Origin: a virus
DNA length: 33,556 nt
Direction: 5' to 3' (one strand)
IMG/VR virus record: IMGVR_UViG_3300021963_000400
Location: 1 to 33,556 of that record
Translations under genes and position numbers: made by a program
Part shown: in pieces, positions 1 through 33,556 of the stretch
Numbering within the stretch: the first letter of the stretch is position 1
How the letters are laid out: each line of letters opens with the position of its first letter
The notes under the pieces: model-generated
What the model saw: only the letters and a program-made list of their open reading frames with translations
The model's database searches: none
What the model was told of the DNA's origin: nothing

Positions 1-415
1 CGGCCCGATGCGCGCGGCAAGTCCGGCGAGGTGGGTATCTCGCAGATTATGCCTAGTACCGGCGCCCAGCCCGGCTATGGCCTGACGCCGATCAGCATGG
101 CCGATGCGGCAGAGCCGGAGAAGGCCATTCCGTGGGGTGCGCAGTATCTGGCCGCGCGCGCGAAGGCGCAGGGCGTCAACGACTGGAACGACCCGGACCA
201 AGCAGCGAAGGGGCTGGCGGCCTACAACGGCAGCGGCCCGGCGGCTGATGGATATGGCCGGCAGGTGGCAAGCTTGGCTGGACTTCAGGGCGCGCAGCCA
301 CCGTCGGCTGCGGCAAGCGCCGGGAGCATGCAGGCACAGTCGCAGACTGGAGGCGCTGACATGTCTGTGCCCGGGCTGCCCGGTTACACGCTCGGCACGC
401 TGACCACGCGCGTGA
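1..415. repeat. Left copy of imperfect 415-bp terminal repeat
   Basis: Identical to 33142-33556 except at bases 33 (G/A), 197 (A/C), 198 (C/G) and 289 (G/A): 411 of 415 match. The repeat marks the point where a circular or permuted genome was cut. The differences change two residues (Asp/Ala at 197-198, Gly/Ser at 289) and one silent base (33). Confidence 0.95.
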
Positions 416-1302
416 TGGAAGGGCTGGGCAGCGAAAACCCGCGCATCCGTGCGCAGGCGGAGAGGTATGTGCCGCTGCTGACCCAGCTTCGCCAGCAAGC
501 ACAGCCCGGCCAAACGGTGAAAATTAACGGCCCGCAAGGCCCGGGCGAGTATGAGCGTTTGCCGAACGGCGGCCTGCGGTTCCTGGGTGGGATTCCTGAA
601 TCGGCGCTGCTGCCGCAGCCGGTGGAAGACCAGAGAGTGCGGCTTGCTCAGGCCGGAAGGGCGAACACAAATCTTACCGTGGACCAGCGCGGGGAAAACG
701 AGGAAGCTAAGGCCTACGGCAGAGAGATGGGGCAACAGGCCTCCGCCGTTCATTCGGAAGCCAATCAGGCGCGCACCTCGCTATCACGGTTGCAGCAGTT
801 TGAGGCGCTTTCTCAGGGATTTCAGACGGGAAAGTTGGCGCCGGCGCAGACGACGGCGGGAGGATGGGCGCGGGCTCTCGGCCTTGATGAAACGAAACTC
901 GGAATTCCGGCAAACGCTGCCATTAACGGCGAGTCGCTGCGGTCAATCAACAATTCGCTTACTTTGTCGCTCATTGGCAGCGGCGGCATGCCGGCAAACA
1001 ACTTTAGCAACACCGACCGCCAATTTATAAGCGAGATCGTTCCCAGCCTGTCCAACACGCCCGGCGCCAACGCCATCATTGCTTTCGGCATGCGCAAAGC
1101 TGCGGAACGGACGGTGGAAAAGGAGGACATGTGGCTCGCGGCACGCGAGCAGGGCCAGAGCTACGGCCAGTTCCTCAAGGATTGGAACACGCACGTGAAA
1201 GCCAACCCGATCATTCGCGTAATCCAGAAGACTGAAGATGCCGAAGCGCTGCCGCGCGGCACGATCTACAGCACGCCTAACGGCCAATACGTCATCCGCT
1301 GA
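1..1302 (+). CDS. Virion lytic transglycosylase, 3' part (5' part at 32662-33556)
   Basis: This is codons 161-593 of a 593-residue protein whose first 160 codons lie at the other end of the window; the reading frame is open from base 1, so an internal ATG at base 31 is not the start. It completes an SLT-type lysozyme-like domain: GISQIMPST (residues 172-180) and AAYNGSG (233-239) match the conserved blocks after the catalytic Glu, which sits in the other piece (QQESGF, Glu157). SLT domains cleave the MurNAc-GlcNAc bond of peptidoglycan. The remaining roughly 350 residues are Ala/Gln-rich and helical without a recognised domain. The position beside another large virion protein suggests an ejection protein that opens the wall during DNA entry rather than the lysis endolysin. 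The family call is firm; the virion role is inferred. Confidence 0.85.
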   Translation, partial: RPDARGKSGEVGISQIMPSTGAQPGYGLTPISMADAAEPEKAIPWGAQYLAARAKAQGVNDWNDPDQAAKGLAAYNGSGPAADGYGRQVASLAGLQGAQPPSAAASAGSMQAQSQTGGADMSVPGLPGYTLGTLTTRVMEGLGSENPRIRAQAERYVPLLTQLRQQAQPGQTVKINGPQGPGEYERLPNGGLRFLGGIPESALLPQPVEDQRVRLAQAGRANTNLTVDQRGENEEAKAYGREMGQQASAVHSEANQARTSLSRLQQFEALSQGFQTGKLAPAQTTAGGWARALGLDETKLGIPANAAINGESLRSINNSLTLSLIGSGGMPANNFSNTDRQFISEIVPSLSNTPGANAIIAFGMRKAAERTVEKEDMWLAAREQGQSYGQFLKDWNTHVKANPIIRVIQKTEDAEALPRGTIYSTPNGQYVIR

Positions 1303-4451: not shown

Positions 4452-4844
4452 ATGCCAACAGTCTCTTCCGCATTCAATTACGCGTTATCTTCTCCTACTT
4501 TACGCGGCAATGTTTTTACGGGAGCGCAAGTTGGCAATGTTACTGCATTGAAATCTACTTCGGCGGCAACGCCAATAAACCTTGCAAATAATAATAATTT
4601 TTCATACCTGACAGTAGAAAATAGTACGCTGTCAGCGCCGTCTAATCCAGTGGCAGGTCAGTCTGGCGTAATCGTAATCACTCAAGGCGCTACTGCACGG
4701 ACGCTAGCTTACAACACATTCTGGAAATTTTCCGTGGGAACAGTTCCTACGCTGACCGCAACAGCATCTGCGGTAGACACCTTTGTGTATTATGTAGAAT
4801 CTCCAACCCGCGCAACCTGCCAGCTAATCAAGGATGTGAAATGA
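4452..4844 (+). CDS. Hypothetical virion protein of the fibre module
   Basis: A 130-residue protein. ATG 4452, one base after the previous stop, is preferred to an ATG 6 codons upstream that would overlap that gene; GGTGGGG lies about 10 nt before it. The sequence is Ser/Thr/Asn/Ala-rich and beta-like, with a run of Asn at about residues 41-45. Base composition changes sharply from here: codons ending in T or A are common, unlike the GC-rich head genes, suggesting recent acquisition together with the next gene. It overlaps the propeller gene by 4 nt (ATGA). No family is recognised; probably a fibre or fibre-associated protein. Confidence 0.6.
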   Translation: MPTVSSAFNYALSSPTLRGNVFTGAQVGNVTALKSTSAATPINLANNNNFSYLTVENSTLSAPSNPVAGQSGVIVITQGATARTLAYNTFWKFSVGTVPTLTATASAVDTFVYYVESPTRATCQLIKDVK

Positions 4845-5866
4845 TAGTCGGCGGGATACCTATGTTGTTTGGTGGGGCAAAGCAGCAGTATATATCTGTC
4901 GTTCACTCCTCTTCCCCCTACGTCACAGCTTACCCCTGGAGTAGTGCAGGTTTTGGCACTAAATTTGCTAACCCTGCTACGCTTCCTGGTGTTACTGGCA
5001 GAGGTGTAACATTTTCCCCTGCTGGTACGGAGATTGCCGTTGCTCACTCCTCTTCCCCTAACGTCACAGTTTACCCGTGGAGTAGTGCAGGTTTTGGCAC
5101 TAAATTTGCTAACCCTGCTACGTTACCTTCTGGTGGTGGTTATGCCGTAGCTTTCTCCCCCGCCGGAACAGAACTCGCTGTTGGCGCCGATGGCACTCCA
5201 TTTGTCTTTGCTTACCCGTGGAGTGGTGCAGGTTTTGGCACTAAATTTGCTGACCCTGCTACACTACCTACTTTTTCTGTTTACGGTGTAGCTTTCTCCC
5301 CAGCTGGAACAGAGATAGCCGCAGCTCATGAGACATCCCCTTACATCGCCGTATATCCTTGGTCTGGTAGTGGTTTTGGTACGAAATTTGCGAATCCAGG
5401 TACGCTGCCAACAGGCAATGGTTTTGGTGTAGCTTTTTCCAAGGCTGGCACTGAAATAGCTGTTGGGCACGCCACATCACCCTATGTCACAATTTACTCT
5501 TGGAGTGGTGCCGGATTTGGTACTAAATTTACCAATCCGGGTACGCTGCCAACAGGCACTAGTTTTGGTGTAGCTTTTTCCAAGTCTGGCACTGAAATAG
5601 CTATTGCCAGCGACCTGACACCCTACGTGTTGGCCTACCCGTGGAGTGGTGCTGGATTTGGTATTAAATTTACCAATCCTGCTACATTACCCGCTTCCAG
5701 TGCATACGGTGTAGCATTCTCCTCCACTAATACGGAGATTGCCGTTGCTCACTCCTCTTCCCCTAACGTCACAGCTTACCCGTGGAGTAGTGCAGGTTTT
5801 GGCACTAAATTTGCTAACCCTGCTACGCTACCGACTGGTGCTGGTTTTGCCGTAGCTTTCTCATAA
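4841..5866 (+). CDS. Seven-bladed beta-propeller fibre / receptor-binding protein
   Basis: A 341-residue protein that is almost wholly seven 47-residue repeats. Trp residues fall at 33, 80, 127, 174, 221, 268 and 315 with no variation in spacing. Each unit reads roughly YPWSxAGFGTKFxNPxTLP, a variable 4-residue loop, GVAFSPAGTEIAVAH. The last two blocks resemble WD40/TolB-like blades. The chain begins in the middle of a blade (ISVVHSSSPYVTAYPW) and ends just after AVAFS, so the two ends complete one blade, the usual closure of a propeller ring. Its place among fibre genes suggests receptor or glycan binding at the tail tip; that is inference. The gene is more AT-rich than the head genes, and blades 2 and 7 are nearly identical in DNA, a sign of recent blade duplication. 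Confidence 0.75.
   Translation: MIVGGIPMLFGGAKQQYISVVHSSSPYVTAYPWSSAGFGTKFANPATLPGVTGRGVTFSPAGTEIAVAHSSSPNVTVYPWSSAGFGTKFANPATLPSGGGYAVAFSPAGTELAVGADGTPFVFAYPWSGAGFGTKFADPATLPTFSVYGVAFSPAGTEIAAAHETSPYIAVYPWSGSGFGTKFANPGTLPTGNGFGVAFSKAGTEIAVGHATSPYVTIYSWSGAGFGTKFTNPGTLPTGTSFGVAFSKSGTEIAIASDLTPYVLAYPWSGAGFGIKFTNPATLPASSAYGVAFSSTNTEIAVAHSSSPNVTAYPWSSAGFGTKFANPATLPTGAGFAVAFS
4892..5863 (+). repeat. Tandem 141-bp repeats encoding propeller blades
   Basis: Seven direct repeats of 141 bp inside the propeller gene. Bases 5026-5122 and 5731-5827, exactly five units (705 bp) apart, differ at one base in 97 (T5070 against C5775). The other units are more diverged, mostly in the short loop after the TLP motif. 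Such repeats can expand, contract or convert by homologous recombination. Confidence 0.9.
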
Positions 5867-8162: not shown

Positions 8163-9134
8163 TTATATCCCTATTTTCAATGGTTTGCGTGGTATAGTTG
8201 TCCGGTTTACTTTTTGTTCTGACAACCGACTGAGCGCGCTTCCTGCCAGCTTTTCTTGGTCTACGCTGCGGGTGTAGAGCGCGACCATGCTCAGGGTCCG
8301 GTGGCCAGTCACGGCGGCGATCTCATGCGTGCTTGCCCCCCGGTCGGCAAGGTTCGCGGCCATCAGTTTCCGCACGCCATGGATACCCAGCCCGGCCATG
8401 CCGATCTTGGCCAGCGCGCGGGCAAGTTGCTCGGTCAGGCGTGGCGCAACCCATGGCGCGCCGTCGCCATTGTCGAGGATTGTGAGGGTGCAGCGCGTCC
8501 GGCGCCAAGCGTCCAACTCGGCGCGCAACTCAGGGCCAACTGGGATCGCCATTTCGGCGCTCGTCTTTTGCTGCCGGAATCGCAGCACTTTGCCATCATC
8601 GGCATCCCAGCGCATTGCCACCAAATCGCCGCGGCGTTGCCCGGTGTGCAGCGCCAGCACTACGGCGCGGCGTAGCGGCTCGCTTAGGCGGGCTATGGCG
8701 TGCGCGGCATGGCCGGCGCTCCACGGCGGCAGGCTGCCACCGGGCAGGCTCTTGATGCGGGTGACGGGAGTGTTGTCGATCCACTCCCGATCAACGGCCC
8801 ACGAAAATAAGGCGGAGGCGGCGCGGATGAATCCGGTTGCCGCGCCGTTGCCTCGCGTGGTGGCGATGGCATCACGCAGGGCTAGGATATCGCGCCGGGT
8901 GACGGCCGACGCGCGGGTGTGGGGATCAGCCTCCAAGGCCTTGAGATAGACATTATAAGTCCGGTGGGTAGCTTCGGCCAGCTTAGCCCATTCCGGGCTT
9001 TGCTTGTAGGCGAGGATCAGCGCGCCGAGCGTGTCATCGTCGAAGCGCGATTGCTGCGCCTTGCGGGCGTACGTGTAGGTTTTGACCGTGCCGTCTGCCA
9101 GCCGCTTTTTGACGACCCGCTGCGAGGACCGCAT
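8163..9134 (-). CDS. int: Tyrosine recombinase, phage integrase
   Basis: A 323-residue integrase. The catalytic set is complete: Arg167 in TGQRRGDL, Lys190 in RQQKTS, His252 and Arg255 in HGVRK, His278 in TGHRT, and the nucleophile Tyr287 in ALYTRS. A core-binding domain (about 35-125) precedes the catalytic domain, and a basic N-terminal strip (RVVKKRLADGTVKTYTY) may bind arm sites. ATG 9134 is supported by GGAG 7 nt upstream. It cuts and joins attP and the bacterial attB to insert or, with an excisionase, release the prophage. It is the distal gene of the leftward early operon, and its first 101 nt overlap the presumed excisionase. Confidence 0.92.
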   Translation of the reverse strand: MRSSQRVVKKRLADGTVKTYTYARKAQQSRFDDDTLGALILAYKQSPEWAKLAEATHRTYNVYLKALEADPHTRASAVTRRDILALRDAIATTRGNGAATGFIRAASALFSWAVDREWIDNTPVTRIKSLPGGSLPPWSAGHAAHAIARLSEPLRRAVVLALHTGQRRGDLVAMRWDADDGKVLRFRQQKTSAEMAIPVGPELRAELDAWRRTRCTLTILDNGDGAPWVAPRLTEQLARALAKIGMAGLGIHGVRKLMAANLADRGASTHEIAAVTGHRTLSMVALYTRSVDQEKLAGSALSRLSEQKVNRTTIPRKPLKIGI

Positions 9135-12407: not shown

Positions 12408-12602
12408 ATGAACCTCCGTCAATTCCGCGCTGAGCGAGGCTGGTCACTCACCAAATTGGCGGGCGAACTCGGCGTTCCCGTTTCGACCGTGCACGGCTGG
12501 ATGGCCGGGCGGCGAATGCCGTCAATGGACGCCATGGAGACAATTGCCAGGGTGACCTGCGGCGCGGTGATGCCCAACGATTTTATGCGCGCCGCCGCAT
12601 GA
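12408..12602 (+). CDS. Cro-like XRE protein
   Basis: A 64-residue helix-turn-helix protein from ATG 12408; a longer open frame from 12360 runs through the operators and is rejected. The core WSLTKLAGELGVPVSTVHGW (12-31) is a clear HTH with a recognition helix, followed by the usual closing helices. Size, position divergent from the repressor and coupling to the next gene (ATGA, 12599-12602) fit a Cro-type protein that competes for the same 17-bp operators and favours lytic growth. It lacks a good ribosome site, so initiation may be near-leaderless. Confidence 0.75.
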   Translation: MNLRQFRAERGWSLTKLAGELGVPVSTVHGWMAGRRMPSMDAMETIARVTCGAVMPNDFMRAAA

Positions 12603-13672
12603 ACACTTTTGGCGGTAGCGACACCGCCCACTCAGGCGCTGCGGTCATGGCCGCTGGCGTGGCGGGGGTGGGTATACCCCGTCTCGGCTCCTCCCCAAAC
12701 TCGGCCTCTGGCAGCAATGCCGGGGGCTCTTTTCGGAAACGCCACCACACTCCGGAGGGCTTGGCGCGGCTGCGGGAGCTTGCACGCCTAGCGATGCAGA
12801 ACCCCGAAACCGTCGCCAGGATGCGCGCCGGGATGGAAGCGAAAAACCCATGGCCGGCGCGGCTCAATGAACTTCGGCAATTGGCTGCGTCTGGCGCTTC
12901 GTTGTCTGCCATCGCGCGGCGGTTTGGGTGCAACCGGAAAACGTTAAAATTCCGATGCGAACAATACGGAATTGACGCCAAAAGTGTGCGCAATTTCCAG
13001 ATGGCGGCTGGCGAAGAGGTGTTGCGGGAAATCTATTACCGCGCGGACCTGGGCAGCGCCGAATTGATTGCACAATACAGAGTAGCCCGGCCCAAGGCGA
13101 CACTTGACGCGCTGCATCAGCACGCGCGGCGACTTGGGCTGCGGCGTCCAGATGATCGTCGGCAAGTCGGCGCTATGGCTGGTTGTAATGGGCGCGTTAA
13201 GGCGATGGCATTGCAGCGCACCGCTATGGCAGCACAGGTGCAGGGATGGCTAGATGACGGCTTGCTCTGCCAGCACATTGTAAACACGCGCGGGGTATCG
13301 CATAAGCGACTGCGCCGGATGCAGCGCGAGGGGTTGATTACAGTCCCGCCACGCCCGAAAGCCGCGCCGTATATGCGACCGTCGCGAGCTAAGGCGGTGG
13401 TTGCGGTTGCACCGTTGCACAGTCCCGCGCCTCCCAGGTTTGTGCCCATACCAGTGCCCACGCCTGTCGTTCATACCCCACTGCCCGAGCCAGTGGAGGT
13501 CATTTCATTTCCGGCGCCATCACCGAACGGCAAAATCTATGCGGGGTTCAATGCGATCCGCCAATGGGCGCAGCGGGCGGGGGTTGATTACGACGGGTCC
13601 AACATGGAGCGAGTCAACCGTGTTCGGGCTGCGGCGAATTTGCCGTTGCTGGTGCAGGACGAGGCAACATGA
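12599..13672 (+). CDS. Helix-turn-helix DNA-binding protein, early regulator or replication protein
   Basis: A 357-residue protein translated in tandem with Cro (ATGA). The first 50 residues are Gly/Ser-rich and disordered. Residues 89-125 (RLNELRQLAASGASLSAIAR then RFGCNRKTLKF) are a homeodomain-like HTH close in pattern to GcrA and resolvase HTHs. A second HTH-like block follows at about 140-182 (EVLREIYYRADLGSAELIAQ), and a third possible one at about 215-245. A Pro-rich linker (265-300) leads to a conserved-looking C-terminal segment (IRQWAQRAGVDYDGSNMERV). Several DNA-binding units in a row suggest a transcription activator or a DNA-organising protein. No exact family is recognised. Confidence 0.65.
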   Translation: MNTFGGSDTAHSGAAVMAAGVAGVGIPRLGSSPNSASGSNAGGSFRKRHHTPEGLARLRELARLAMQNPETVARMRAGMEAKNPWPARLNELRQLAASGASLSAIARRFGCNRKTLKFRCEQYGIDAKSVRNFQMAAGEEVLREIYYRADLGSAELIAQYRVARPKATLDALHQHARRLGLRRPDDRRQVGAMAGCNGRVKAMALQRTAMAAQVQGWLDDGLLCQHIVNTRGVSHKRLRRMQREGLITVPPRPKAAPYMRPSRAKAVVAVAPLHSPAPPRFVPIPVPTPVVHTPLPEPVEVISFPAPSPNGKIYAGFNAIRQWAQRAGVDYDGSNMERVNRVRAAANLPLLVQDEAT

Positions 13673-17643: not shown

Positions 17644-18479
17644 CTGAGCACCGCTGGTCTAAGTTTTGGTGGGCCGACTGGATGCGCGACCCTTCTTTGC
17701 GCTCTTGCTCAGTGGCAGCTCGCGGCTTGTGGATGGATATGCTAGCGATTGCCTTTGACGGCGCGCCGCGCGGACACGTCACCATCGGCCGCAACCCCGC
17801 CAGCCCCAAGCAACTCGCCATTATCGCCGGTATCACGGAAAAGCAGTGCGTCGCGCTCTTGGCTGAGTTGGATCAAGCCGAAGTGTTTAGCCGCACCGAA
17901 GCAGGCGGAATCTTTAGCCGCCGCATGGTTCGTGACACAGACGCATCGGAAGCAGGGCGCGAGGCTATTACCAAACGGTGGCAAAAACCGACGAAAGAAG
18001 CGCCGGACCCTAATAGCCCTCCTAATAGCCCCACTAATAGGGAAGACCATAGCCCCCCCCATAGTCTAGAAGCAGAAGCAGATACAGAAGCAGAAGCAGA
18101 GAAGAAAGACCCCCCCTCACTTCGTTCGGGCACCCCCCAGCCGAAGGGCCGCGGTTCGCGCTTGCCGGACGACTGGCAGCCGAAGGAGCCCGACCTGCCG
18201 AGCCAACACGGCGCAGAGCCCGCAGGCACGCTGGCGCACTTCCGGGACCATTACCGGGCCAAGCCGGGGACAGCCGGCGTGATGCTGGATTGGGAGGCGG
18301 CATGGCGGAATTGGTGCAGGAAAATCAGCGACTTCAAGCGCGCGCCACCCAGCCGGCTGCCGGTCAAAACAAGCCAAATGTCCGTCCCCGACCAGAACGC
18401 CGAGCTGCTGCGGTTGATGGGCCGCCACTACGAAGCCGAGGACGAAACACCCGCAACGCAGTTGAGGATTGTGCAATGA
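17640..18479 (+). CDS. Replication initiator / replisome organiser-like protein (O-type)
   Basis: A 279-residue protein. The N-terminal domain (WSKFWWADWMRDPSLRSCSV, then ARGLWMDMLAIAF and a winged-helix-like ITEKQCVALLAELDQAEVFS) is typical of phage O-like or DUF1376-type initiators. A low-complexity linker (about 119-165, Asn/Ser/Pro then Glu/Ala repeats) separates it from a C-terminal domain with LPDDWQPKEPD, LAHFRDHYRAKPG and DWEAAWRNWCRK, common in these proteins. In lambda the origin lies inside the O gene linker, and the DNA of this linker carries five 12-bp repeats. It probably binds the origin and recruits the host helicase. Linked by ATGA on both sides. Confidence 0.7.
   Translation: MTEHRWSKFWWADWMRDPSLRSCSVAARGLWMDMLAIAFDGAPRGHVTIGRNPASPKQLAIIAGITEKQCVALLAELDQAEVFSRTEAGGIFSRRMVRDTDASEAGREAITKRWQKPTKEAPDPNSPPNSPTNREDHSPPHSLEAEADTEAEAEKKDPPSLRSGTPQPKGRGSRLPDDWQPKEPDLPSQHGAEPAGTLAHFRDHYRAKPGTAGVMLDWEAAWRNWCRKISDFKRAPPSRLPVKTSQMSVPDQNAELLRLMGRHYEAEDETPATQLRIVQ
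18011..18110. repeat. Candidate origin iterons inside the initiator gene
   Basis: The core (A/C)ATAG recurs at 18012, 18024, 18036, 18048 and 18060, exactly every 12 bp, the first three within TAATAG. A purine tract of GAAGCA/GCAGA repeats follows (about 18068-18110). This mirrors lambda ori, where iterons inside O precede a sequence with strand asymmetry. The period is also four codons, so a peptide repeat (NSPP-type) is an alternative reading. Confidence 0.45.
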
Positions 18480-18922
18480 TGGACCGCGTTAAATGGTTGG
18501 GAATGCTGGCCAAACTGGGGACACCAGCCGATCCCGTGAAGGCGTTCCAGGCGTTGGAAGCCTACCTGCCGTTCCTTTCCGCACTGCCCAACGAGGCGTT
18601 CACGCTGGCCAGCCTGGAGCACGTCGCTATGACGCCGAAGCGGCTGCATATCCCCGATTTGAGCGAGGTGAAAGCGCCGTTGCTGGCATGGTGGCGCGAC
18701 AACCGCCCAGCTCGCACGGCGTTGTCAGCAACCGTCGACAAGCCCGAACAACCCCGCGCTGAGCCGACGCAAGCCGAGCGAGAGGCCGTGGCGCGGACCA
18801 TGCGGACCTACCTCGGCCAAGTGGCGCCGGTGGTGACGGAACGGGCGACGGTGCGGGCGCACCCTGCGCCGCCAACCGTGCTTGCCGAAGCCCGCGCCCG
18901 GCTGGCGAGGGGGCGTGGGTGA
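18476..18922 (+). CDS. Hypothetical replication-operon protein, helicase-loader position
   Basis: A 148-residue protein from ATG 18476 (ATGA with the initiator, GAGG about 8 nt upstream). The N-terminal 75 residues look folded and helical (KAFQALEAYLPFLSALPNEA, LLAWWRDNRP); the C-terminal half is Ala/Arg/Pro-rich and basic. Coming right after the O-like gene it has the place of lambda P, the helicase loader, but I see no DnaC Walker motif or P-like signature. Function unassigned. It ends in GTGA overlapping the next start. Confidence 0.55.
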   Translation: MMDRVKWLGMLAKLGTPADPVKAFQALEAYLPFLSALPNEAFTLASLEHVAMTPKRLHIPDLSEVKAPLLAWWRDNRPARTALSATVDKPEQPRAEPTQAEREAVARTMRTYLGQVAPVVTERATVRAHPAPPTVLAEARARLARGRG

Positions 18923-21647: not shown

Positions 21648-23630
21648 ATGTCCGACGACGCCAGCACCAGCGGCGGTTCCTTGGAACGGCCCGAAGACGC
21701 GGGCAAAGGCAAGGCGGGGCTGGTCGCGCTGTGGCTTGACGCCATCGCGTTGGCGGGGAAAGAGGAATCGGATTGGCGCGACAGCGCGGCCGATGCTTTG
21801 GCGGCCTACAAGGGCGAAGTGAAGGACAAGGCCCGCGCTCAGCGCCGGTTCAATATTTTGTTTTCTAACGTCGAAACCATTGCGCCGGCCATTTACAATT
21901 CTGTGCCTACGCCAAACGTGCGCCGCCGCTTTCTTGACGACGATCCCGTGGGCCGCACGGCAGCGCAGGTGCTGGAGCGCGCGCTGTCTTCGGCAATGGA
22001 CGGCTATGGGTTCGACCCGATTATGCGCCGCTCGGTGAAGGACACGCTAATCACCGGCCGCGCCGTGGTGCGTGTGCGCTACGAGCCGACAATGGTCGAT
22101 GGCGCGCTGATCTACGAGCGCGTTGGCTGCGAGAGCGTCTACTGGGCCGACTTCCGCCGTGGACCGGCGCGCACGTGGGAGAGCGTCCCGTGGGTGGCTT
22201 TCCGGCACTTCCTCACGCGCGAGGAGCTGGAGCGGCTGAACCCGAAGATCGGCGCCACCATAGATCTGGATGCGCGCTTGCAGGGTGTCGAGGACAAGGA
22301 CGGCCAGCCGCCGGCGCAAATATTCCAGCGCGCCACGGTCTGGGAAATATGGGACCGCGACCGCCGCCGCGTGTTGTTCATCGCGCCGGCCTACCGAGAC
22401 GCGCCGCTGGTCGAGGCTGATGACCCGCTGGGGCTGGCTGACTTCTTCCCAATCCCGTGCCCGATCTACGCCATCGACACGCCCGACAGCCTCGTCCCGG
22501 TGGAGCCCTACAGGCTCTACAAGGATCTGGCGGACGAGCTCGACCGCGTGACGCGGCGCATAGCGTCGCTCACGGCGGCGCTGAAATGGCGCGGCGCCTA
22601 TGCCGACCCGACGCTGGGCGATTTCCTCGTCAAGTTTGAAAAACTGGCGGATGGCGAGTTCGCGCCAATGGATAACCCTGGCGCTTTCGCTGCGGCCAAT
22701 GGTGGGCTTGAAAAAGCCTTCTGGATGATGCCGATTGAGCAAGCGGCTAGCGTGTTGCAGCAACTTTACTCGGCGCGCCAGCAGATCAAGGCGTCCATCT
22801 ACGAAGTCACCGGCATTAGCGACATTGTTCGCGGCGCCAGCCAAGCCAGCGAGACGGCCACGGCGCAAAGCATCAAGAGCCAGTGGGGTTCGCTGCGCAT
22901 TCAGCGGCTGCAGGCCGAGGTGCAGCGGTTTGCGCGCGACCTGCTGCGCCTGAAGGCCGAGATCATCGCCGAGAAATTTGAGCCGCAGAGCCTCATGGCC
23001 GCGTCTGGCATCCCGGTGGACGAGCAGGTGATGGCGCTACTGCGAAACGACGCCATGCGCACCTATCGCGTTGACATCGAGACGGACAGCACTATTCAGG
23101 CCGACGTGGCGCGCGCGCAACAGAACGCCAGCGGCTTCATGGCCGGCTTTGGTCAATTTATGCAGGCGATAGGTCCGGCGGTCCAAGCCGGTGCGCTGCC
23201 GGTCGAAGTGGCCCGCACGATGCTGCAGAGCTTCGCGCGCAGCTTCAAGCTGGGCCGCGCGGTGGAGGACGCTATTGACAGCATCGGCCAACAGCAGCCG
23301 CAGGCCCCAGGCGCACCGCAGGCCGACGCGCAGGTTGCCGCCCAGCAGCAAGCCCAGCAGCAAGCCCAGCAAGAGGCCCAGCAGCAGGTTCAGCAGGAGG
23401 CCCAAATGAAGGCGCAGGGCGAGCAGATGAAGGCGCAAGTTTCGCTTCAGGCCGAGAATATTCGGGCGCAGGCCATGTTGCAGGCCGAGCAGATGCGCAT
23501 CGCCGCCGAGAACCAGCGCCACGCGGCCGAGATGGCCATGAAGCGCGACATTGAGCGCGAGCGACTCGCCGCCGACATGCAGGCGCGCCAATCGCGGGAG
23601 ATGGACCGCATGGTTTTGGTGCCCAACTGA
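21648..23630 (+). CDS. Portal protein
   Basis: A 660-residue protein directly upstream of scaffold and capsid genes. The N-terminal part (AQRRFNILFSNVETIAPAIY, then GYGFDPIMRRSVKDTLITGR) and the central KASIYEVTGISDIVRGAS block are typical of podovirus portals. The ring forms the channel through which DNA enters and leaves the head. The C-terminal 110 residues are a Gln/Ala-rich coiled coil (repeats of QQQAQ near 560-585, then long charged helices), comparable in place to the barrel of P22-type portals. The gene ends in TGATGA, overlapping the next start by 1 nt. Confidence 0.85.
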   Translation: MSDDASTSGGSLERPEDAGKGKAGLVALWLDAIALAGKEESDWRDSAADALAAYKGEVKDKARAQRRFNILFSNVETIAPAIYNSVPTPNVRRRFLDDDPVGRTAAQVLERALSSAMDGYGFDPIMRRSVKDTLITGRAVVRVRYEPTMVDGALIYERVGCESVYWADFRRGPARTWESVPWVAFRHFLTREELERLNPKIGATIDLDARLQGVEDKDGQPPAQIFQRATVWEIWDRDRRRVLFIAPAYRDAPLVEADDPLGLADFFPIPCPIYAIDTPDSLVPVEPYRLYKDLADELDRVTRRIASLTAALKWRGAYADPTLGDFLVKFEKLADGEFAPMDNPGAFAAANGGLEKAFWMMPIEQAASVLQQLYSARQQIKASIYEVTGISDIVRGASQASETATAQSIKSQWGSLRIQRLQAEVQRFARDLLRLKAEIIAEKFEPQSLMAASGIPVDEQVMALLRNDAMRTYRVDIETDSTIQADVARAQQNASGFMAGFGQFMQAIGPAVQAGALPVEVARTMLQSFARSFKLGRAVEDAIDSIGQQQPQAPGAPQADAQVAAQQQAQQQAQQEAQQQVQQEAQMKAQGEQMKAQVSLQAENIRAQAMLQAEQMRIAAENQRHAAEMAMKRDIERERLAADMQARQSREMDRMVLVPN

Positions 23631-29371: not shown

Positions 29372-29805
29372 GGTTGGTGTTCGGGCAGGACCAAGCCGTG
29401 GGCGCCTGGGTGGTGTCGCGCATCCCTCACGTCGAGGACGTCCGGACGCTTGGCCCGTTTGCGGCAATTGGTGTGGCCGACGATGAGAAGCTAATGGCGG
29501 GGTGCGTGTTCCACAACTACGCGCCGGCTTACGGCAACTGCGAGATCAGCTTCGCCGCCGACACGGCACGCTGGGCCACGCGCGGCACGATCCGGGCGTT
29601 GCTGTCGGTGCCGTTTCAGCAATACGGCTGCCGGCGGGTATCGCTGGTGACGCCGCACGACAACGAGCGAGCGCAGAGGTTCATCCGCGGGATCGGCTTT
29701 GTCCGCGAGGGCTGCGCGCGAGACTTCTTTGCGCCTAAGCGCCACGCGGTGCTGTTCGGGCTGCTGCGCCGGGAGTTTGACCGGCTCTTTACGAGGAAAA
29801 GCTGA
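29368..29805 (+). CDS. GNAT-like acetyltransferase
   Basis: A 145-residue protein from GTG 29368 (GTGA overlap). The order of features fits the GNAT fold: an N-terminal strand (RLVFGQDQAVGAWV), a central strand pair with AAIGVADDEKLMAGCVFHNY, a helix at GTIRALLSVPFQQYGCRRVS and the C-terminal block NERAQRFIRGIGFVREG, where an acetyl-CoA-binding site is expected. GNAT genes are common between hub and fibre genes in short-tailed phages; their targets are unknown. It may modify a host or virion protein. Confidence 0.7.
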   Translation: MRLVFGQDQAVGAWVVSRIPHVEDVRTLGPFAAIGVADDEKLMAGCVFHNYAPAYGNCEISFAADTARWATRGTIRALLSVPFQQYGCRRVSLVTPHDNERAQRFIRGIGFVREGCARDFFAPKRHAVLFGLLRREFDRLFTRKS

Positions 29806-32081
29806 TGGGAAAGAGCGCGCCCGAACCGCCCCCGGTGCCCGATCCCGTTGCCACGGCAGCGGCGCAGACACAGAGCAATCTGGCGACCGCGCGCACCAAC
29901 GCGACGCTGAACCGCGTGGACCAATACACGCCCAACGGTTCCTCTACATTTACACCGCTTGCAAACACCTACGTTGCGGACCAGTTGGCCAACCGCCGGG
30001 CGGCCTACGACGCCGACACGCGGCCGTTGTACACCGGGCCGCTGACAACTACGGTGACGACGCCAGGGACGAGAAGCCAGGGGTCTGATACTGCTGGCGA
30101 AAACTCTAGCGGCGGCAACTACTATGCCGATGCGCCTGCCACGACGGTGACGCAGCCCGTGTCAATTCCGGGCGACTATAAAACGCCATGGAACGAGGCG
30201 GCCGTCCGCACCGAGCTTGAGGCCAACAACCCGCTCGCCGACCGTTGGCGCCAAGACGTGACGCTCTCGCCGGAACAGCAACGGCTGCTGAACCTGCAGA
30301 ACCAAGCCAAGAGCCTCTATGGCACCACTGCGCTTAACCAGCTCCAGGGGTTGCAGGGCGCCCTGTCGTCACCGTTTAACCCGACGCTACCCAACGCGCC
30401 CACGGGCGTGACTTCGCAAGGTGGTGCGCTTGCCACTGGTGCGCCGACGTCGCCGACGCTGAACACCAACCTGCCGAGCGCCGCCGGCCAGCTTCAATAC
30501 AACGCCCCGACGCTTGGGCCGCAGGGCACGGTGCAGTCGCGCGCGGGCCAGCTGTTCGGCGGGACGCTGACGGCGCCGGAGCTTCAGGTTAACGCGCCGT
30601 CCGGCTTTGCCGCAACGCTGCCGGAGCAGCGCGCGCTGGAACTGGCCTATGCCTCGCGCGCGAATGAACTGGCGCGGACGTTCGGCGGCAACGTGCCGGG
30701 CATCCAGTATGGCATAGGCGACGCAGGCGCCATTCAGCGCAACGTTGACGCCGATGCGTCTAGCCGCAACCGCGTCGAGGAAGCCCTGTTCGGCCGGATG
30801 AACCCGCAGATTGAGCAGACGCGGCTGGCACTGGAAACGCGGCTGCGCAACCAGGGCCTCGCACCCGGCGGCGAAGCCTGGATGAATTCGCTGAACGACA
30901 TCCAGCGCCAGGAGAACGATGCGCGACTGGCCGTAATTGCTCAGGCCGGGCAGGAGCAATCCCGCCAGCTTGGTATGGATCTGTCGCGCGGCCAGTTCAG
31001 CAACGCCGCACAGCAGCAGGCTTTCGCGCAGGAGGTAGGGCGCCAGCAGGCGTTCAACGTTGCGCAGCAGCAGGGCTTTGGCCAGTCGCGAGACGTGGCG
31101 GGGTTCGGCAATCAGGCTTTGATGGCCGCGCAGGGTTTAGATAGCCAAGCAATGGACAGCCGCAACACCGCGCGCAACCAGATGTTTGGCCAGTCGGTTC
31201 AAGCGGCACAGATTGCCAACGACGCTGCGGCGCGTAATACGCAAATGGCGCAGCAGGCGGAGCAGATGCGCCTGAACGCGCGGATTGCGCAGTTTGGGGC
31301 GCAAGTGCAGGCGGCGGGGTTCCAGAACGCCCAGGCAGGCCAAGCGCAACAGATGGACCTTGCCAGCGGCCAGTTCAACAATCAGGCGGCGCTGGCGCAG
31401 TTCGGCGCGGGCATGCAGGGCATGGCCGCAGGCAATCAGGCGGTGCAGTCGGGTTTTGGTATGAACTCGGCAGCCGCCGGATTCAACAACGCAGCGCTAC
31501 AGCAGGGCTTCGCCAACAACCTCCAGGGCGCCACGTTTGGCAATCAGGCGCTAGGCCAACGGCAGGCGCTGGACGCTCAAGCTCAGCAATCCCAGGCCGC
31601 GTTGCGTCAGGCGGCGCTGCAGGAGCAAATGACCCTCCGCAGCGTGCCGCTAAACGAGACGGCGGCGCTGTTTGGACAGGCCGGGGTGCAATACCCGCAG
31701 TTCGGCCAGGTGCCGACGGCAAACGTGGCGACGACCGACGTGCTGGGAGCCTACGGCATGGCTCAGAACGCCGCACAGGCGGCCTACAACACTCAGGCGC
31801 AACAGGCGGCCGCGAACACGTCCGGGCTGTTCGGCGGGCTCTCCAGCCTCGGCGGCGCCGGCATCATGGCCTACGCCCTGTCGGACGAGCGCGCAAAAGA
31901 GAACGTCCGCGAAGTGGGTGAACTCGACAACGGCCTGCCCGTTTATCTGTTTAACTACAAGGGCAGCCCGACGCCGCAGATCGGCCTGATGGCCCAGGAC
32001 GTCGAGAAGAAGAAACCGAGCGCCGTGGTTAAGGGCGCGGACGGCTACAAGCGTGTGAACTACGCAATGGCAGCAAGGTAA
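29805..32081 (+). CDS. Large virion protein with C-terminal S74-type domain
   Basis: A 758-residue protein. The N-terminus is Pro-rich (about 1-20), the middle is Asn/Gln/Ala-rich helix with irregular repeats (QFNNQAALAQFG, GFNNAALQQGF and similar, 400-600), and the last 67 residues form a short Peptidase S74-like domain: LSDERAKENVREV (692-704), GLMAQDVE (727-734) and a terminal VNYAM. In known fibres S74 is a self-cleaving chaperone for trimer folding, cutting next to the Ser of this SDER-type motif; here the usual helical tail after it is missing. The rest looks like an ejection or tail protein. The function is uncertain. Confidence 0.6.
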   Translation: MGKSAPEPPPVPDPVATAAAQTQSNLATARTNATLNRVDQYTPNGSSTFTPLANTYVADQLANRRAAYDADTRPLYTGPLTTTVTTPGTRSQGSDTAGENSSGGNYYADAPATTVTQPVSIPGDYKTPWNEAAVRTELEANNPLADRWRQDVTLSPEQQRLLNLQNQAKSLYGTTALNQLQGLQGALSSPFNPTLPNAPTGVTSQGGALATGAPTSPTLNTNLPSAAGQLQYNAPTLGPQGTVQSRAGQLFGGTLTAPELQVNAPSGFAATLPEQRALELAYASRANELARTFGGNVPGIQYGIGDAGAIQRNVDADASSRNRVEEALFGRMNPQIEQTRLALETRLRNQGLAPGGEAWMNSLNDIQRQENDARLAVIAQAGQEQSRQLGMDLSRGQFSNAAQQQAFAQEVGRQQAFNVAQQQGFGQSRDVAGFGNQALMAAQGLDSQAMDSRNTARNQMFGQSVQAAQIANDAAARNTQMAQQAEQMRLNARIAQFGAQVQAAGFQNAQAGQAQQMDLASGQFNNQAALAQFGAGMQGMAAGNQAVQSGFGMNSAAAGFNNAALQQGFANNLQGATFGNQALGQRQALDAQAQQSQAALRQAALQEQMTLRSVPLNETAALFGQAGVQYPQFGQVPTANVATTDVLGAYGMAQNAAQAAYNTQAQQAAANTSGLFGGLSSLGGAGIMAYALSDERAKENVREVGELDNGLPVYLFNYKGSPTPQIGLMAQDVEKKKPSAVVKGADGYKRVNYAMAAR

Positions 32082-32087
32082 CAAACG

Positions 32088-32336
32088 ATGGACGAAGCAC
32101 TTGGTGGCGGCGGCGGCATGATGCCGCAGAGCCCGATTGTCTCGCCCGACATGGTGGGCGCGATGGACGGCATGGACCCGGGTATGCGGCGCAAACTGCT
32201 GGCCGACATGCTGATGCGCCGTGGCATGGGCGGCATGGGCATCGCGTCCAACGCCTCGCCGGTTGGCGCGGGCATGCAGGGCATCGGGAATGCGCTGCAG
32301 ATGGCGCTGATGTCTGGCAGGTTGAAAGGATTCTGA
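32088..32336 (+). CDS. Small Met/Gly-rich virion-operon protein
   Basis: An 82-residue protein with about one residue in five being Met. The central motif DPGMRRKLLADMLMRRG (30-46) is shared in pattern with the next two gene products (DP, RR, LA, LM at matching spacing). No membrane segment or enzyme motif. ATG 32088 follows AAGGTAAC with the previous stop 6 nt away. It is likely a small virion or ejection-complex component; unknown family. Confidence 0.6.
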   Translation: MDEALGGGGGMMPQSPIVSPDMVGAMDGMDPGMRRKLLADMLMRRGMGGMGIASNASPVGAGMQGIGNALQMALMSGRLKGF

Positions 32337-32337
32337 G

Positions 32338-32640
32338 ATGTCCGGTTATGTGGGCCTCCCCCAGCAGTCAATGCCTATGGACCCTGCGCAACGTCGGCAG
32401 ATGCTTGCCCAGGCGCTGATGCAGCGTCCGTGGGCAATGGACATGCCAAGCCAGCCGCCACAGATGCAGCCCGGCGCGCCGCCGCCGATGATGCCGCCCG
32501 GTGGCCCGGCGCAAATGGCGCCGCAGGCCGGGATAATGCCGCCGCAGCGCGGCCCGCAGCCCGGCATGGGCGGCCCGCGCCCGATGGCTGGTGCGCTTCC
32601 AATGGGCATGCCGGCGATACCCGGCCAGCCGCGCCGATAG
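32338..32640 (+). CDS. Small Pro/Met/Gln-rich virion-operon protein
   Basis: A 100-residue protein, 1 nt after its neighbour. The N-terminal third has DPAQRRQMLAQALMQRP (15-31), the same pattern as the adjacent gene products; the rest is disordered Pro/Met/Gly/Gln sequence (for example PPPMMPPGG). Its composition suggests a flexible adhesive or linker peptide in the virion. No family is recognised. Confidence 0.6.
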   Translation: MSGYVGLPQQSMPMDPAQRRQMLAQALMQRPWAMDMPSQPPQMQPGAPPPMMPPGGPAQMAPQAGIMPPQRGPQPGMGGPRPMAGALPMGMPAIPGQPRR

Positions 32641-32661
32641 TCTCTGGCCTAGGAGCCGCCC

Positions 32662-33556
32662 ATGTCTGGCAGCATGTATGATCCCCGAATCTCGGCTCTT
32701 GCGTTGCAAGACCCCGAGCTTGCCGCCATTGAGCGCCGCCGCGCGCTTGCTGCGGCGCTGATGCAACAGGGGCAGCAGAACCAGAAGCTGACGCACCCGT
32801 TGCAGGTGGTGGGGAACCTTGCCAACACGGCGGTGTCGGCGCTGCTGATGCGCAAAGCCGACGAGGAAGGCAAGGCGCTGGTTGACCAACAGCGCAACGA
32901 TGTGCGTAGCTTTTTCCAGCCTGGGCAGGGATCTCCAAACCCGGCGTTGACGGCTGATGCGGCGCCTACCAGCCCCGTGACGGCGCCGCTGGCGCCGGTG
33001 CAGCGCGAGACCGTGCTGCCAATAAATGGCTCGACACTGGCGGTGCCGGAGCACCTGCAACCTACCATTCGGCAGGCGAGCGATCAGTCCGGCGTGCCGT
33101 ACAACATCCTTGCCGCCAAGCTGCAGCAGGAAAGCGGCTTCCGGCCCGATGCGCGCGGCAAGTCCGGCGAGGTAGGTATCTCGCAGATTATGCCTAGTAC
33201 CGGCGCCCAGCCCGGCTATGGCCTGACGCCGATCAGCATGGCCGATGCGGCAGAGCCGGAGAAGGCCATTCCGTGGGGTGCGCAGTATCTGGCCGCGCGC
33301 GCGAAGGCGCAGGGCGTCAACGACTGGAACGACCCGGCGCAAGCAGCGAAGGGGCTGGCGGCCTACAACGGCAGCGGCCCGGCGGCTGATGGATATGGCC
33401 GGCAGGTGGCAAGCTTGGCTGGACTTCAGAGCGCGCAGCCACCGTCGGCTGCGGCAAGCGCCGGGAGCATGCAGGCACAGTCGCAGACTGGAGGCGCTGA
33501 CATGTCTGTGCCCGGGCTGCCCGGTTACACGCTCGGCACGCTGACCACGCGCGTGA
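32662..33556 (+). CDS. Virion lytic transglycosylase, 5' part (continues at base 1)
   Basis: The gene starts at ATG 32662 with AGGAG at 32651-32655. Residues 1-100 are helical and carry DPELAAIERRRALAAALMQQ (17-36), which shares the DP/RR/LA/LM pattern of the two preceding small proteins. A Pro/Thr linker leads to the SLT domain: YNILAAKLQQESGF (147-160) with the likely catalytic Glu157. The frame is open to the window end, and codon 161 equals base 1 of the window. The reading runs through the repeated 415 bp. A nearby stop is absent because the gene is cut by the window end. Confidence 0.85.
   Translation, partial: MSGSMYDPRISALALQDPELAAIERRRALAAALMQQGQQNQKLTHPLQVVGNLANTAVSALLMRKADEEGKALVDQQRNDVRSFFQPGQGSPNPALTADAAPTSPVTAPLAPVQRETVLPINGSTLAVPEHLQPTIRQASDQSGVPYNILAAKLQQESGFRPDARGKSGEVGISQIMPSTGAQPGYGLTPISMADAAEPEKAIPWGAQYLAARAKAQGVNDWNDPAQAAKGLAAYNGSGPAADGYGRQVASLAGLQSAQPPSAAASAGSMQAQSQTGGADMSVPGLPGYTLGTLTTRV
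33142..33556. repeat. Right copy of imperfect 415-bp terminal repeat
   Basis: Second copy of the sequence at 1-415 with four substitutions and no insertions or deletions. All lie within one open reading frame and keep it open. Joining the ends gives a genome of 33,141 bp. Confidence 0.95.

Follow-up and report, generated by a model that had tools for sequence, protein, structure and literature searches.

A helix shared by a wall-cutting ejection protein and its small companions probably holds them together in the head of a podovirus-type phage until injection

The DNA analyzed here, referred to as the window, is the stretch of 33,556 nucleotides that makes up positions 1 to 33,556 of IMG/VR virus record IMGVR_UViG_3300021963_000400, and it represents a podovirus-type phage. 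Its structural module is arranged in the order terminase, portal, major capsid protein, adaptor, neck, GNAT, S74-type ejection protein, an 82-residue protein, a 100-residue protein, a transglycosylase (TG) and a 737-residue protein. The record is circular and its ends overlap, and the TG gene is split between the two ends of the window. Positions 1-300 repeat positions 33142-33441 at 99% identity, and over their full length the end repeats (1-415 and 33142-33556) are about 99% rather than 100% identical, which points to a circular record with a few differences. Contig L202 bridges the junction of the window ends at 99.95% identity and yields the complete TG of 593 residues. The features used in this analysis are the following:

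21648..23630, + strand: portal protein (PHROG 12082, 4e-157), with a long Q/A-rich, helical-looking C-terminus
29805..32081, + strand: first ejection protein, S74/IVPB-like, 758 aa, upstream of the companions (PHROG 6121, 5.5e-70)
32088..32336, + strand: 82-aa companion protein; helix 1, residues 30-45, at 32175-32222; helix 2, residues 57-80, at 32256-32327; homologue in L022 at 8498-8806
32338..32640, + strand: 100-aa companion protein; helix 1, residues 15-30, at 32380-32427, followed by a P/M/G/Q-rich tail
32662..33555, + strand: second ejection protein (TG), N-terminal 298 residues; helix 1 at 32713-32775, helix 2 at 32797-32916
33064-33372, + strand: SLT domain of TG (Pfam SLT, 1e-15)
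31..1302, + strand: C-terminal remainder of TG, reached across the junction spanned by L202
1312..3525, + strand: candidate third ejection protein, 737 aa, downstream of TG; assigned by position only, as the third large ejection-operon gene in relatives

The protein encoded at 29805..32081 also matched the "DNA ejection protein" family PHROG 4287 (7e-13) and Peptidase_S74 (5.5e-7). The SLT domain of TG (PF01464) scored 57.8 bits, above the Pfam cut-off of 21.3. Judged by the neck protein, the nearest named phages include Sulfitobacter phage phiGT1, pCB2047-A/C, EBPR podovirus 2 and Myxococcus phage Mx8 as well as phages of Rhizobium and Bradyrhizobium, all below 40% identity, and a comparison of the same protein with bacterial genomes gave one distant prophage, in Rhizobium rhizogenes. 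Two further repeats were observed in the window. The candidate third ejection protein starts with a duplicated motif at 1312-1450 (WPGTPLSEYVGR and WPGTPLSQFVQRG), possibly another short docking motif. At 4841-5866 a 141-nt unit occurs six times in register and encodes 47-residue repeats with FGTKFANPATLP and YPWSSAG; this gene is close to the tail-fibre genes, and its product is a repeat protein of a propeller-like kind.

The two small proteins and TG, encoded consecutively, carry a common motif, which is DPGMRRKLLADMLMRR in the 82-residue protein (residues 30-45), DPAQRRQMLAQALMQR in the 100-residue protein (residues 15-30) and DP-ELAAIE-RRRALAAALMQQ in TG (residues 17-36). The distance from RR to LA is 4 residues and that from RR to LM is 8 residues in all three proteins. 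An earlier note on this DNA had pointed out these strings and the equal RR-to-LM spacing, and both observations are correct. Its statement that the surrounding sequence is unrelated is valid for the 100-residue protein but not for TG and the 82-residue protein, which both continue into a second helix. In the latter two the motif forms the first helix (helix 1) of a helix-loop-helix element, whereas the 100-residue protein has helix 1 only, followed by a low-complexity P/M/G-rich tail in place of helix 2. Among the + strand ORFs of the window, the looser pattern R...[LM]A..L[MLR] is confined to these three proteins.

The evidence for a common motif is modest if only the window is considered and becomes strong once relatives are added. 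Pairwise local alignments within the window gave p values of 0.018, 0.030 and 0.025 against shuffled sequences. Using a 16-residue helix-1 matrix built solely from the TGs of relatives, p values against shuffled versions were 0.008-0.016 for the 82-residue protein and 0.001-0.003 for the 100-residue protein, and TG, the 100-residue protein and the 82-residue protein ranked 1, 2 and 4 among about 218 window ORFs. Rank 3 was occupied by an unrelated early gene (12599-13672), and since this gene outscores the 82-residue protein a match to the 16-residue helix is not diagnostic by itself. When the matrix was widened to 21 residues the 82-residue protein came only 9th (p = 0.039), and its match to the TG hairpin profile of relatives reached only E = 0.48, after iteration and with a poorly aligned domain. 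The same protein is homologous across its entire hairpin to a 103-residue ORF in the corresponding position of L022 (p = 0.0003). The N-terminus of the 100-residue protein resembles that of the L022 TG (p = 0.0007).

AlphaFold2 predicted helices at residues 18-38 and 46-85 of TG, with a block pLDDT of 72-93, followed by a disordered linker at residues 90-125 and then the SLT domain. For the 82-residue protein helices 31-48 and 59-75 were predicted with low confidence (mean pLDDT 63, helix 1 about 80). A conserved hydrophobic stripe runs along the helix at positions -4, +2, +3, +6 and +7. The hairpin has a mean net charge of +3 with a basic cluster at -2 to 0, and its hydrophobic moment is moderate (0.27). 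No transmembrane-like stretch was detected in 31 hairpins, the best 19-mer having a hydropathy of 1.06 and none exceeding 1.6.

Nearly all of the inspected relatives have the same element, continued by a loop and a second helix, at the N-terminus of TG or of the protein that takes its position. A profile constructed from 12 relatives with the window left out retrieved the window TG at E = 6e-9 among 22,593 ORFs. After iteration 101 ORFs scored at E < 0.01, with the domain located in the first 40 residues in 98 of them and with no match on the minus strand. An end-to-end scan of 30 phage records, for which the hairpin query included no small protein, gave one TG hairpin match each in 28 records, positioned at the N-terminus of the ejection protein that follows the S74 gene. 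The only other clear matches (<0.001) were free-standing hairpin proteins of 80-95 aa in four records (E from 8e-13 to 6e-5), and phiGT1 had one marginal additional match (E = 0.007). The recurrence of the shared helix in ejection-operon proteins of related phages, on which the earlier note had made its suggestion of a docking or sorting helix depend, was thus found, and the distribution is not random across the proteome. The suggestion itself is partly supported, with a change of unit, which is a helical hairpin and not just a 14-residue motif. Behind this N-terminal module there are three or four types of hydrolase, with SLT, Phage_lysozyme2 and glucosaminidase among them, or no recognized enzyme. 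The module is thus retained across changes of hydrolase, and we assign it to delivery or assembly and not to catalysis. The folding and domain-swap data are compatible with a docking or sorting module.

Sequence and structure searches gave chance matches only for the TG N-terminus by tblastn against the phage collection, one insignificant match (SmhA, E = 0.06) for the hairpin profile against PDB sequences, and nothing at E < 0.001 for the TG model by Foldseek against the PDB, so that a solved homologue was found neither by sequence nor by fold. A Pfam model for the module was not found, nor was a description of it in the open-access literature. The gene order neck, GNAT, S74/IVPB-like, second and third ejection protein is the same as that around T7 gp15, P22 gp20 and the phiGT1 internal virion protein, and TG follows the IVPB gene in the order neck-GNAT-IVPB-IVPC-IVPD. 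The hairpin profile gave no significant score with P22 gp20 or T7 gp15, and TG is therefore placed in the IVPC / T7 gp15 / P22 gp20 class by gene order and not by hairpin homology. The window phage has its lytic SLT domain on the second ejection protein; T7 carries the lytic domain on gp16 instead. In the study of phiGT1 the internal virion protein genes were not analyzed in detail (PMC10386132).

Small proteins carrying helix 1 recur between the S74 gene and TG. When each small ORF in this interval was compared with shuffles of itself, helix 1 scored at p < 0.05 in 24 of 43 ORFs and at p < 0.01 in 10 of 43; the ORFs are not all independent, and the 43 include wrong-frame artefacts in L016 (11992) and L142 (5526-6401), of which L142 5526 (p = 0.016) is among the 24. 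By inspection the helix-1 companions fall into about ten families, and p55 of phage Mx8, which was scored separately, gave p = 0.0027. Two consecutive small proteins followed by TG, as in the window, are repeated in L074, L075 and L076, and also in L065, where the contig ends before TG. In L074 the motifs of the two companions and TG are SDPQRLAEMLAMQEAN, PDRPQRMAQMLAMQER and AERQRRYAELLQQQAM. The architecture of the 100-residue protein is matched by a family of P/M/G-rich companions of 112-142 aa and is found in L055, L061, L067, L074-L076, L080, L089 and L098. Helix 1 without the second half occurs in the window 100-residue protein and in the companions of L038 and L061. The companions of L008, L142 and L153 have an SF.FGGN-like start resembling the TG N-terminus, and in L049 and L060 a small protein whose gene precedes the neck gene has helix 1 at its C-terminus (p = 0.0017 and 0.0007). 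Within a genome, companion and TG helices are more alike than in shuffled pairings (p = 0.0006, with hand-chosen anchors and uncorrected for phylogeny). The small-ORF families are under purifying selection, with median dN/dS values of 0.19, 0.24 and 0.08, and the small ORFs of the window have the same codon-position G+C pattern as their neighbours and possible ribosome sites. A companion gene is absent from many relatives, among them most of the phiGT1-like ones, and companions are thus optional.

Companions searched for in named phages were not found. The small "virion structural protein" gp52 of LUZ24, encoded at the same place, was rejected since the motif is absent. The only PHROG found for companions was PHROG 33032 (function unknown, 83 aa). 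The free hairpin proteins of L142 and L153 are members of it, whereas the window 82-residue protein does not match it. The companion C-termini of L055, L061, L069, L074, L076 and others share the sequence SPGMTTPQGG.YRGDF. It was set aside as a second docking end: the DNA encoding YRGD is Shine-Dalgarno-like and is a likely ribosome site for the TG start, which overlaps the companion gene, and translation coupling may therefore account for the retention of part of the sequence. In L147 a free hairpin protein of 87 aa (18258-18521, E about 1e-6) is encoded well downstream of TG and not just before it. Metabolic-looking genes that by inspection are PAPS reductase-like (L049 5523-6239 and L085 13198-13890) or ferritin- or heme-oxygenase-like (L077 13015-13608 and L081 12881-13492) are present beside companions inside the ejection operon.

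A compact N-terminal hairpin, a flexible linker and small proteins with the same helix together fit a docking module that uses one kind of site. Our main reading, to which we assign a probability of roughly 0.55, is that the hairpin is an assembly module by which the second ejection protein, together with small adaptors, is docked to one site of the internal core, comparable to T7 gp6.7. The motif would be helix 1 of this docking module, and the N-terminal hairpin of the second ejection protein would be tied by the linker to the wall-cutting domain. Companions, which have this helix whether or not helix 2 follows, could use the same kind of binding site, copies of which may surround the portal barrel or lie on the first, S74-type ejection protein. 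They would fill or bridge sites left free by the large protein, and the core would thereby be held on the portal until injection, as is done by T7 gp6.7. The shared helix would then probably be a plug that holds the wall-cutting protein and its companions together in the virus head until injection. The portal protein is a candidate docking partner, and we infer that either its barrel or the S74 protein binds the module and that the companions are present in the virion as adaptors.

In T7 the 88-residue gp6.7 bridges the portal barrel to gp14/gp15; only short stretches of it are resolved, and it is ejected together with the core (PMC11784390). A likeness of the companions to gp6.7 is proposed for role and size only, and the gp6.7 contacts are modelled as two loops, whereas the window companions share a helix with a large ejection protein. 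The part of the phage DEV report considered here describes an N-terminal helix of the tunnel protein gp72 that packs on gp73 (PMC10925440), which resembles the proposed arrangement in that an N-terminal helix contacts a neighbouring ejection protein; gp72 belongs to a different family, and no companion protein is described in that part.

Other explanations of the shared helix were considered. The conserved hydrophobic stripe suits helix packing, and with the resemblance of companion and TG helices within genomes it would agree with TG and companion hairpins binding each other in a mixed ring or bundle, in which companions serve as spacers or caps and a separate partner is not needed. We consider this rather unlikely, since most relatives have the TG hairpin without a companion and the helix-1-only companions of the window, L038 and L061 lack the second half. 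It is unlikely that the helix acts in the envelope after ejection, as a cationic amphipathic element that attaches to lipid A or to the inner membrane and aids insertion of the ejected proteins. Its net charge and basic cluster would suit such a role and ejection proteins do enter the envelope (PMC8954989), but the lack of a transmembrane-like stretch in any of the 31 hairpins (0/31) and the only moderate moment argue against it.

That the companions are functionless leftovers, i.e. remnants of the 5' part of the TG gene that outlasted domain-swapping recombination, is suggested by their location directly upstream of TG and by their likeness to its N-terminus, including the SF.FGGN-like starts. 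This explanation is already weakened and appears very improbable in view of the purifying selection, the plausible ribosome sites, the companions' own tails that are conserved within families and the recurrence in about ten distinct families. Helices rich in A, L, M, Q and R look alike, and the within-window pairwise p values of merely 0.02-0.03 and the unrelated gene with an equally high score would be expected if the similarity were a chance or composition artefact. The composition-preserving shuffles, the independent profiles, the fixed genomic position and the replicates in L022, L074, L075 and L076 leave such an artefact with hardly any likelihood; for the TG motif it is already refuted, and for the motifs of the 82- and 100-residue proteins it is very unlikely given the relatives.

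To our knowledge, the selection, loading and retention of ejection proteins in the heads of short-tailed phages are poorly understood, above all in P22-type phages, whose ejection proteins form no ordered core. Under the docking reading, a short, recognizable module that tiny companions have in common with the large ejection protein is a concrete handle, from which it can be predicted which of the small genes without annotation are part of the core. In tractable phages, of which Sulfitobacter phage phiGT1 is an example, the module can be deleted or can serve as bait. A wider and more doubtful proposal is that one transferable docking helix is a loading tag widely used by ejectosomal podoviruses, with its bearers being placed on the portal core and injected. 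If this were true, phages would freely vary the set of tagged passengers and adaptors.
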